Of a stretch of DNA of 33,232 bases, positions 3,967 to 19,550 are shown piece after piece. The notes under the pieces are model-generated. The model saw nothing but the letters and a program-made list of their open reading frames with translations, ran no database searches and had not been told where the DNA came from. This DNA is from Acidobacteriota bacterium. GTDB lineage: Bacteria; Actinomycetota; Acidimicrobiia; Spongiisociales; UBA5794. The stretch covers positions 1 to 33,232 of the forward strand of contig JADFIY010000007.1 in assembly GCA_022566415.1 (NCBI GenBank). Direction: 5' to 3'. The translations under genes were made by a program, and so were the position numbers. Numbering within the stretch: position 1 is the first letter of the stretch; every line of letters begins with the position of its first letter.

Positions 3967-3997
3967 ACGTAATACGTAATACGTGATACGTAATACG
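3967..3997 (+). repeat. Heptamer repeat array, ACGTAAT type (rplK-rplA gap)
   Basis: Tandem heptamers ACGTAAT, ACGTAAT, ACGTGAT, ACGTAAT plus a trailing ACG begin six bases after the rplK stop codon. The unit is nearly its own reverse complement, so the array can self-pair. Confidence 0.85.
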
Positions 3998-4047
3998 CAG
4001 AAGTGGGAGAGGCGCGAGCCTCGTGAGAACCACGTCAGGAGACCAAA

Positions 4048-4767: not shown

Positions 4768-4835
4768 TCACAAGTCACAAGTCGCAAGCAAACCGCCTCG
4801 TCCAATGGCTTGCGTCTTGTGTTCGCGTCTTGAGA
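4768..4835 (+). repeat. Heptamer repeat element, inverted arms (after rplA)
   Basis: Three heptamers TCACAAG, TCACAAG and TCGCAAG (4768-4788) follow the rplA stop. An inverted arm of CTTGCGT, CTTGTGT, one six-base unit and CTTGAGA spans 4809-4835. Together they could form a hairpin that acts as a boundary after rplA. No T-run follows. Confidence 0.8.
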
Positions 4836-4848
4836 CCAAATAAACCTG

Positions 4849-4878
4849 TTGGCAGGTACTGGGCCACCCTGCAATACT
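4849..4878 (+). promoter_or_regulatory. Promoter for the rplJL leader transcript
   Basis: TTGGCA (4849-4854) and AATACT (4873-4878) with an 18-bp spacer. The predicted start is about 4885, giving an unusually long leader of roughly 530 bases before rplJ, or an independent small RNA ending at the hairpin at 5098-5123. Confidence 0.55.
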
Positions 4879-4884
4879 CTGGGG

Positions 4885-5123
4885 TACATAGCGGGGGGCC
4901 TTGGAGACCAGGCTCAAGGGACGATCCACCACCGTTCCAGGCGGGAAACCCAGCCACCCCGGACCACCCGAGGGTCAGCCCCTACCCTGGCCCTCAATCC
5001 GAGGTGGAGACGAGTAGATGGCTTCCTGGCCCGCCGTCTGCCCGAATCCTCGGAAGTGGGACCCGCGTGCGGGTCGCCACGGTCTCACCGCTGTGACAGG
5101 CGCCCGGCTACCGCCGGGCGCCT
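4885..5123 (+). ncRNA. GC-rich structured RNA region of unknown type, upstream of rplJ
   Basis: This stretch has no convincing coding frame; the open frames in it are proline- and arginine-rich with no family resemblance and no Shine-Dalgarno. It lies between a promoter and a strong hairpin and contains several local stems: GACCCG/CGGGTC (5060-5075), CGGT/ACCG (5080-5090) and the end hairpin. I checked it by eye against tmRNA, RNase P RNA, SRP RNA, T-box and cobalamin riboswitch signatures and found none. It may be a separate RNA or the 5' half of the rplJ leader. Confidence 0.4.
5098..5123 (+). terminator. Perfect 11-bp hairpin without T-run
   Basis: AGGCGCCCGGC (5098-5108) pairs perfectly with GCCGGGCGCCT (5113-5123) around the loop TACC. 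The sequence after it is GCGCGTAATG, so there is no U-tract. A second perfect small hairpin, GAGCAC-TTC-GTGCTC, follows at 5133-5147. GC-rich hairpins lacking U-tracts are often proposed as terminators in actinobacteria. Confidence 0.6.
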
Positions 5124-5150
5124 GCGCGTAATGAGCACTTCGTGCTCGGT

Positions 5151-5220
5151 ATTACGTACTACGTATTACGTACCACGTATTACGAAAACTCCGGTCGTGA
5201 TACGTAATACGTAATACGTT
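5151..5220 (+). repeat. Heptamer repeat element, ATTACGT / ATACGTA arms
   Basis: Five heptamers ATTACGT, ACTACGT, ATTACGT, ACCACGT and ATTACGA (5151-5185) are followed after 14 bases by an opposite arm of three ATACGTA-type heptamers (5200-5220). The arms are complementary, so this inserts a large hairpin into the rplJ leader. Confidence 0.85.
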
Positions 5221-5229
5221 GTACGCCCT

Positions 5230-5377
5230 GGCGTTAGATCACGCCGAGCCCTACGATCTCCCGAACAACCTCAAATGCCTGAGACCGCAGGTGCTTTTGC
5301 ATGAGACCGCTTCGGCGGCGCCGGCGTAGGTCGTCCTCCAAAGAGGGCTCCTCGTCTCACGGCGGGAGCCCGTTTTT
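5230..5377 (+). promoter_or_regulatory. L10-type ribosomal protein leader with attenuator, upstream of rplJ
   Basis: A hairpin GGCGT/ACGCC (5230-5245) is followed by CCTG-AGACCG-CAGG (5278-5291), a repeated GAGACCGC at 5281 and 5303, and CCGC-TTCG-GCGG just after. Then GGGCTCC (5345-5351) pairs with GGAGCCC (5365-5371), followed by G and five Ts (5373-5377). That last element looks like an intrinsic terminator. In other bacteria the L10(L12)4 complex binds the leader at such GAGACC-containing folds and controls termination. The attenuation model here is inferred from that family knowledge. Confidence 0.62.
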
Positions 5378-5416
5378 CGTATCGCCGGACCAGAAGCAAC
5401 CACAGGAGGACGACGA

Positions 5417-6223
5417 ATGCCACGACCGGAGAAGGTCCAGGCCGTCGTTGACATCAAGCAGCGCCTCGACGGAGCGCAGGCCGTGTTTGTGACCGAGTAC
5501 GCAGGGCTTTCTGTCAAAGAGCAGCAGGTGTTGCGTCGCCAGCTCAAGGCGAGCGGTGCCGAGATGAAGGTCGTCAAGATGACCCTGGCCCGGCTCGCCG
5601 CCGCTCATATGACCGACGAGCTGAGCGATCTCTTGTTTGGTCCGACGGCGCTCACCTTTGCCGACGGCGACCCAGCGGCCGCGGCCAAAGCCCTGAAGGC
5701 ATTCGCCAAGGAACACGACGCCTTGATCATCAAGGGTGGGGTCCTCGGCGAAGAGTTCCTGAGCCCGGAACGCGTCTCGCAACTCGCCGATCTCGATCCT
5801 CGCGAGGTTCTGTTGGCCAAGATCGCCGGCGCCTTTGCTGCACCCATGGCCCAGATGGCCGGTCTGCTCGCCGCCCTGCCGCGCAACGCGGCCACCGTGT
5901 TCCAGCAGCTACTGGAGAAGAAAGAGGAAGAAAGTCCGGGGTCTTCAGTCGTCATTCCTCAGCCCGAGGAAGAAAGCACGGAGTCTTCAGTCGACAGTCC
6001 TCAGCCCGAGGAAGAAAGCACGGAGTCTTCAGTCGACAGTCCTCGGCCCGAGGAAGAAAGCACGGAGTCTTCAGTCGACAGTCCTCGGCCCGAGGAAGAA
6101 ACCGCGGCTGAGACTGAGGACGCCGCGGCTGAGACTGAGGACGCCGCGGCTGAGACTGAGGACGCCGCGGCTGAGACTGAGGGCGCCGCGGCTGAGACTG
6201 AGGACGCCGCGGCTGACGACTGA
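5417..6223 (+). CDS. rplJ: Large ribosomal subunit protein uL10 with repetitive acidic C-terminal tail
   Basis: L10 anchors the L7/L12 stalk dimers on the ribosome. Residues 1-169 form a complete family core (MPRPEKVQAVVDIKQRL at the start; helix AAPMAQMAGLLAALPRNAATVFQQLLE near the end, where L7/L12 dimers bind). Residues 170-268 are an added tail. Four 14-residue repeats (EEESTESSVDSPQP type, from 42-bp repeats at 5924-6091) are followed by five 7-residue AAETEDA repeats (21-bp repeats at 6102-6206). The tail is strongly acidic, probably disordered, and placed just after the L12-binding helix. AGGAGGA (5404-5410) precedes ATG 5417. L10 is usually about 170-180 residues. Confidence 0.95.
   Translation: MPRPEKVQAVVDIKQRLDGAQAVFVTEYAGLSVKEQQVLRRQLKASGAEMKVVKMTLARLAAAHMTDELSDLLFGPTALTFADGDPAAAAKALKAFAKEHDALIIKGGVLGEEFLSPERVSQLADLDPREVLLAKIAGAFAAPMAQMAGLLAALPRNAATVFQQLLEKKEEESPGSSVVIPQPEEESTESSVDSPQPEEESTESSVDSPRPEEESTESSVDSPRPEEETAAETEDAAAETEDAAAETEDAAAETEGAAAETEDAAADD
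5924..6219 (+). repeat. In-frame tandem repeats (42 bp x 4, then 21 bp x 5) in the rplJ tail
   Basis: Units of 42 bp lie at 5924-5965, 5966-6007, 6008-6049 and 6050-6091, the first being the most diverged. Units of 21 bp start at 6102, 6123, 6144, 6165 and 6186, with a partial sixth. Both lengths are multiples of 7 and of 3. Each later 42-bp unit contains AGTCTTC, AGTCGAC, AGTCCTC in heptamer register. Just after the stop region, ACTGATG, ACTGACG and ACTGAAA (6219-6239) again repeat every 7 bases. Confidence 0.92.
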
Positions 6224-6638: not shown

Positions 6639-6643
6639 CGAAG

Positions 6644-6753
6644 ACGCAAGTCGCAAGTCGCAAGTCAAAACGGGAGACGGATCGGTCGAGAGCGAGCCCG
6701 CTTTTTGTTGATGTGGGTGCTGGGGGTTCCTGCTTGTGACCTGTGACTTGGGA
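6644..6753 (+). repeat. Heptamer repeat element, inverted arms (after rplL)
   Basis: ACGCAAG, TCGCAAG, TCGCAAG (6644-6664) begin six bases after the rplL stop codon. CTTGTGA, CCTGTGA, CTTGGGA (6733-6753) form the opposite arm. The terminator-like hairpin lies between the arms. Confidence 0.75.
6667..6705 (+). terminator. Possible intrinsic terminator between rplL and rpoB
   Basis: AAAACGGG (6667-6674) can pair with CCCGCTTTT (6697-6705) with one bulge, and five Ts run from 6702. The long loop makes it weaker than a classic terminator. It would allow partial separation of rplJL from rpoBC expression. Confidence 0.4.
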
Positions 6754-19486: not shown

Positions 19487-19521
19487 ACGTATCACGGACT
19501 ACGTAATACGTAATACGTAAT
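19487..19521 (+). repeat. Heptamer repeat array, ACGTAAT type (tuf-rpsJ gap)
   Basis: ACGTATC, ACGGACT, ACGTAAT, ACGTAAT, ACGTAAT start one base after the tuf stop codon and fill half of the gap to rpsJ. I see no promoter in this gap, so rpsJ is probably read from the str promoter. Confidence 0.85.
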
Positions 19522-19550
19522 ACGGCGAGCGAGGAACGAGCGAGCACAAA

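Follow-up and report, generated by a model that had tools for sequence, protein, structure and literature searches.

A candidate gene for a conserved structured RNA between rplA and rplJ in the actinobacterial order UBA5794 (Ca. Spongiisociales)

What occupies the long untranslated stretch between the ribosomal-protein genes rplA and rplJ of an uncultured actinobacterium? In the DNA analysed here (33,232 nucleotides of contig JADFIY010000007.1, hereafter the window), ~530 untranslated bases separate a promoter at 4849-4878 from the rplJ ATG at 5417, as an earlier note on this DNA had observed in offering two readings of the interval, a very long rplJL leader or a hidden small RNA. The small RNA holds up, having a conserved fold and a promoter of its own, and the very long leader does not, since relatives may carry the block inverted, have a gene between it and rplJ, or lack it altogether, and still keep the rplJ leader. 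Positions 4885-5095 (to ~5125 with a terminator hairpin) very probably constitute an independent gene for a structured non-coding RNA, located between rplA and rplJ, and this RNA is the first member to be described of a family that belongs to the order UBA5794 (Ca. Spongiisociales, class Acidimicrobiia).

The promoter of the small RNA lies where the earlier note had placed it (4849-4878, forward strand) and is of the sigma-70 type, with a -35 element TTGGCA at 4849-4854, an 18-nt spacer and a -10 element AATACT at 4873-4878. Corresponding sequences (TTGACA/TGGACA, mostly a 17-nt spacer, xAxxxT) occur directly 5′ of the RNA in most of 43 relatives, and they are present whichever way the RNA faces relative to rplA. 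Judged from these sequences, the small RNA is probably transcribed, and its 5′ end would fall ~7-9 nt downstream of the -10 element. The body of the RNA (4885-5095, forward strand), supported by homologues, covariation and folding z-scores, is ~210 nt long, or ~210-240 nt when the terminator-like hairpin at 5097-5124 (forward strand) is included. This hairpin is a perfect stem of 12 bp with a UACC loop and without a U-run; the earlier note had described a perfect hairpin closing the block, correct as to perfection and one base pair short in extent (11 bp, 5098-5123). About half of 24 relatives have a GC-rich hairpin (9 bp or more) after the RNA, and in several of the others the RNA terminates with its closing stem and a U-rich tract.

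The block, previously described as GC-rich and structured, folds at -135 kcal/mol (z = -4.1), with 0/200 dinucleotide shuffles equally good, and the folding z-score is at or below -2 in 41/43 homologues. Independent foldings agree on a branched structure comprising a ~20-bp closing stem (P1), hairpin A, an inner stem (P3), a stem P4 with hairpin B, and hairpin C, all on the forward strand. In the outer part of P1, the 5′ arm CAUAGCGG (4887-4894) pairs with the 3′ arm CCGCUGUG (5088-5095), as supported by folding and by a swapped-arm test. Hairpin A (4918-4938) consists of GGGACG, loop AUCCACCAC and CGUUCC and has covarying pairs (AU:17/GC:8 and others). Hairpin B (4970-4995) carries loop CCCCUACC at 4979-4986 and covarying columns (GC:14/AU:11, GC:18/AU:5 and CG:18/UA:5); it is the motif retained farthest across the order, being seen in families f1-f5 and f8. 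Hairpin C (5011-5044) carries loop UUCCUGGCCC at 5023-5032, with ~97% loop identity within the family of the window, and in family f8 its stem is swapped for a different complementary stem with most of the loop retained.

Covariation among orthologues, which the earlier note had proposed as a check, is evident in hairpins A, B and C, where 95.7% of cells are paired versus just 26-43% in slid controls, and 39 cells are double-changed versus 12.5 in shuffles, a value reached in 0/500. The swapped-arm test, which is alignment-free and compares 5′ and 3′ arms from the same genome with swapped arms over 5000 permutations, gives -33.5 kcal/mol for cognate P1 arms versus -21.3 kcal/mol for swapped ones, and -15.4 versus -10.0 for P4. 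Swapped arms did as well in 0/5000 permutations for each of P1, A, P3, P4 and B, and in 5/5000 for hairpin C, the stem of which is nearly invariant. Sequence identity is 93% in the loops, 67% in paired columns and 56% in the remaining unpaired columns, and all three conserved loops are C-rich. Total folding energy prefers no strand (23/43 homologues), so the strand assignment rests on the promoters and on G-U pairs, by which 95.7% of cells are paired on the strand as given versus 83.6% on its complement.

How widely the RNA occurs was assessed at several taxonomic depths. In an initial nucleotide search of 60 relatives, the block turned up throughout the family of the window, and the interval 4885-5123, on whose conservation the earlier note had staked its proposal, is conserved there. 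A covariance model (R1), searched against 395 genomes of the class, mostly fragmentary metagenome-assembled genomes (MAGs) that sample the group, detected the RNA in 35 of the 50 included genomes of that family, which is the family of UBA5794. Strong matches in the family always fall in the rplA-rplJ spacer, and nearly all matches represent one copy per genome; a second partial copy in G022 lies in a duplicated stretch at a contig end and is probably an assembly artefact. Most of the 15/50 family genomes without a match are incomplete. In G034 the RNA is truly missing from the locus, which indicates that it is not universally needed.

Beyond the family, diverged homologues extend over much of the order: in families f8, f4 and f2 they are recovered from the rplA-rplJ spacer by a full-length model (R2), at E-values, which are rough, of 1e-8 to 1.5e-3 (211 kb searched). 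Families f3 and f5 score weakly (E ~0.5), and position, hairpin B, closing stem and promoter, as judged by eye, suggest homology there. Among 47 loci sampled from other orders and classes, R2 gave no match below E 0.5, and most rplA-rplJ spacers of these groups are merely 165-330 nt long; a phylum-wide scan of 297 genomes yielded outside the order just three weak matches (E ~0.003-0.005), without the motifs. Weak model matches outside the rplA-rplJ spacer (L072-L074, L077 and L225-L227) do not combine all three motifs and seem to be chance matches. An exact three-motif pattern run over 84,980 species genomes matched mostly Acidimicrobiia or other actinobacterial MAGs, among them UBA5794 itself, which NCBI places in Ca. 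Spongiisociales. A few pattern matches under other MAG labels share the rplA-rplJ context; those in proteobacteria, some Acidobacteria and Solihabitans have no such context, appear chance-like and were set aside.

Comparison with known RNA families returned no identity for the block. Rfam searches of 4849-5130 at E up to 10 gave implausible matches only, in keeping with the earlier impression that this first block is unlike any known family, and 16 loci including relatives gave no Rfam match above gathering. Canonical RNase P RNA and SRP RNA are located elsewhere in the source genome, and identity as a diverged RNase P, SRP, 6S or 6C RNA is unsupported by family-model searches. The 6S model (RF00013) has no match in the window at E up to 10, none above gathering in the 16 loci and none in 60 relatives at E up to 1; the same search detects 6S in E. 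coli, B. subtilis and others, which served as the positive control. The new RNA resembles 6S in its ~200-nt length, long closing stem and independent gene, but 6S and Ms1 have been portrayed as a single long hairpin interrupted by a central bubble (PMC4191392), large in 6S, whereas the new RNA is branched with three hairpin loops. Ms1 of mycobacteria and Streptomyces is similarly actinobacterial, 200-300 nt long and closed by a long stem; this bubble hairpin lies beside HAD-hydrolase and oxidoreductase genes (PMC9130861), whereas the branched RNA lacks these conserved neighbours and always lies between rplA and rplJ. For 6C (RF01066) there is no match in the window and none above cut-off in 13 relatives. 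Like 6C, the new RNA is small and structured with C-rich hairpin loops, but the 6C model spans 75 nt and the new RNA ~210 nt with three branched hairpins. CoRP of Corynebacterium is likewise a lineage-restricted structured RNA of an actinobacterium, but it is 516 nt long, flanked by tRNA genes and found only in Corynebacterium (PMC11077062), in contrast to an RNA of ~210 nt between rplA and rplJ. The L10 leader (RF00557) shares the intergenic region with the new RNA and has no match in 4849-5130; the L10-type leader here is a separate element at 5264-5377 that stays in place where the RNA is inverted or missing. A literature search covering few subscription journals found no description of the RNA.

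Downstream of the RNA, rplJ (ribosomal protein L10; 5417-6223, forward strand; PF00466, E 1.5e-24) has a separate predicted promoter at 5228-5257 on the same strand, with -35 CTGGCG at 5228-5233 and -10 TACGAT at 5252-5257. This -10 element is kept at the same place in relatives (for example TTGACG-18-TACGAT in L022). Transcription starting 3′ of 5123, raised in the earlier note as an objection to its proposal, is most likely for rplJ by this conserved promoter sequence, and it counts against the leader reading only. The L10-type leader with an attenuator, previously put at 5230-5377, is indeed present (5264-5377, forward strand; paired core 5281-5332, attenuator 5345-5377), and its core GAGACCG...GCGCAGGUC and terminator are conserved in relatives, though the Rfam L10 leader model (RF00557) has no match in the true leader region, 5220-5440. 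This leader and its homologues may represent an L10 leader specific to the lineage, for which a separate model would be worthwhile. The rplJ product has an acidic C-terminal tail of ~95 residues (5935-6220) derived from near-identical DNA repeats (units STESSVDSP.PEEE and AAETEDA), and rplJ of G034 has a similarly long acidic tail of different sequence.

Between the two transcription units lies a dispersed palindromic repeat of ACGTAATACG units (5149-5225, not assigned to a strand) that has dozens of further genomic matches, is not conserved in relatives and belongs to neither the small RNA nor the rplJ unit. The heptamer hairpin described earlier at 5151-5220 is real (arms 5155-5185/5195-5225, 87%) and is this repeat rather than a component of either unit. 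Rfam microRNA matches on 5149-5225 reflect a simple palindrome and are meaningless. Palindromic repeats of the ACGTAATACG type also lie between genes at window positions 3968-3998 and 19500-19530. A second intergenic inverted repeat, of ACAAGTCGCAAG units, follows rplA at 4771-4832, and similar units lie 3′ of rplL at ~6642-6667.

Could the RNA nevertheless be the 5′ part of a ~530-nt rplJL leader, for example a second L10 or L1 binding site? It does lie upstream of rplJ on the same strand in the window and in 33/35 family genomes with a match, but in G018 and G026 of the same family it is on the strand opposite rplA and rplJ (each inversion resting on one MAG contig, where rplA and rplJ flank the RNA), as it is in most members of other families, two f2 genomes (L161 and L164) having it on the same strand. 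A protein gene of 280, 396 or 353 codons separates the RNA from rplJ in G011, G010 and G021; G034 lacks the RNA yet retains the leader; and the RNA is followed by its terminator-like hairpin, with a separate conserved promoter serving rplJ. Since G034 belongs to the same genus as the carriers G009 and G026, one genus shows the RNA present, inverted and absent. Such inversion and loss in relatives indicate that the RNA acts on its own and not as the front end of a neighbouring mRNA; on comparative grounds it is not part of the rplJ mRNA, and a leader role is highly improbable. Of the inserted genes (at loci L019, L030 and L031), the 280-codon one encodes an APH/choline-kinase-like protein, the 396-codon one a protein that begins with a signal-like sequence, and the 353-codon one a methyltransferase that carries an Rv2258c-like winged HTH. 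Open reading frames at 4830-5096 and 4849-5214 exist mechanically, but a small protein encoded by either is barely credible, as inter-motif distances range over 42-56 and 24-37 nt, not in threes, and loops and complementary stems are conserved rather than codons. Variable orientation and occasional absence would suit a mobile or selfish RNA-coding element at a preferred site, an explanation made very unlikely by the single copy per genome in nearly all matches and by the use of the same site across the order. Sequence comparison shows a conserved gene with a defined fold, promoter sequence and strand, independent of rplJ.

The best overall explanation, and a likely one, is an independent gene for a trans-acting non-coding RNA that uses its C-rich loops as contacts and has G-rich RNA or protein partners. 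Its own sigma-70-type promoter would give rise to a ~210-240-nt RNA in which a long closing stem encloses hairpin A and an inner stem that bears hairpins B and C, and this RNA would work in trans, not as an rplJ leader. That the C-rich loops are near-invariant while their stems covary points to the loops as contact surfaces; these may pair with G-rich stretches of other RNAs, or the RNA may bind a protein of the gene-expression machinery. Loop-mediated pairing with G-rich RNA is our tentative first choice, preferred because mycobacterial 6C is reported, in the title of Mai et al. 2019 as cited in PMC9569102, to bind mRNAs via C-rich loops without a chaperone. Complementarity between loop B, CCCCUACC, and GGTAGGGG in 23S rRNA of L214, L215 and L219 is treated as coincidence, since the GGTAGGGG stretch was not found in 23S of L216 and L217, whose small RNAs retain at least CCCUACC. 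We note that the 23S genes L214-L217 (G039, G006, G008 and G009) match a 2,925-position model over 3.6-4.6 kb and contain large insertions, at least one directly 3′ of GGTCCTAAGGTAG; the insert at L216:3744-4286 encodes a LAGLIDADG endonuclease (PF00961, E 5.6e-20), so these insertions look like introns. The main rival to pairing with G-rich RNA, which we regard as possible but unlikely, is a housekeeping role in which the RNA would bind RNA polymerase (or the ribosome) and stand in for 6S, which binds the holoenzyme, or Ms1, which binds the core enzyme. We retain it because of the 6S gap (no 6S detected in 60 relatives, control genomes being positive) and because Ms1 and CoRP are lineage-specific actinobacterial RNAs with such a role (PMC9130861, PMC11077062). 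Size and long closing stem resembling 6S/Ms1, single copy, own promoter and location in the rplKA-rplJL-rpoBC cluster also fit polymerase or ribosome binding, but the branched fold with three conserved loops departs from the 6S/Ms1 bubble hairpin and the RNA is missing in at least one relative. More doubtful still is its extension to an order-wide global regulator in Acidimicrobiia that would bind RNA polymerase or the ribosome and fill the 6S/Ms1 role with an unrelated three-loop fold, encoded in the ribosomal-protein/RNA-polymerase cluster.

This RNA adds an Rfam-absent family for an order of uncultured bacteria that has no detectable 6S, and its fixed locus, promoter, fold and three loop sequences are precise enough for testing. 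It also illustrates that a small RNA gene can mimic a long leader, and that orientation compared across relatives tells the two apart.
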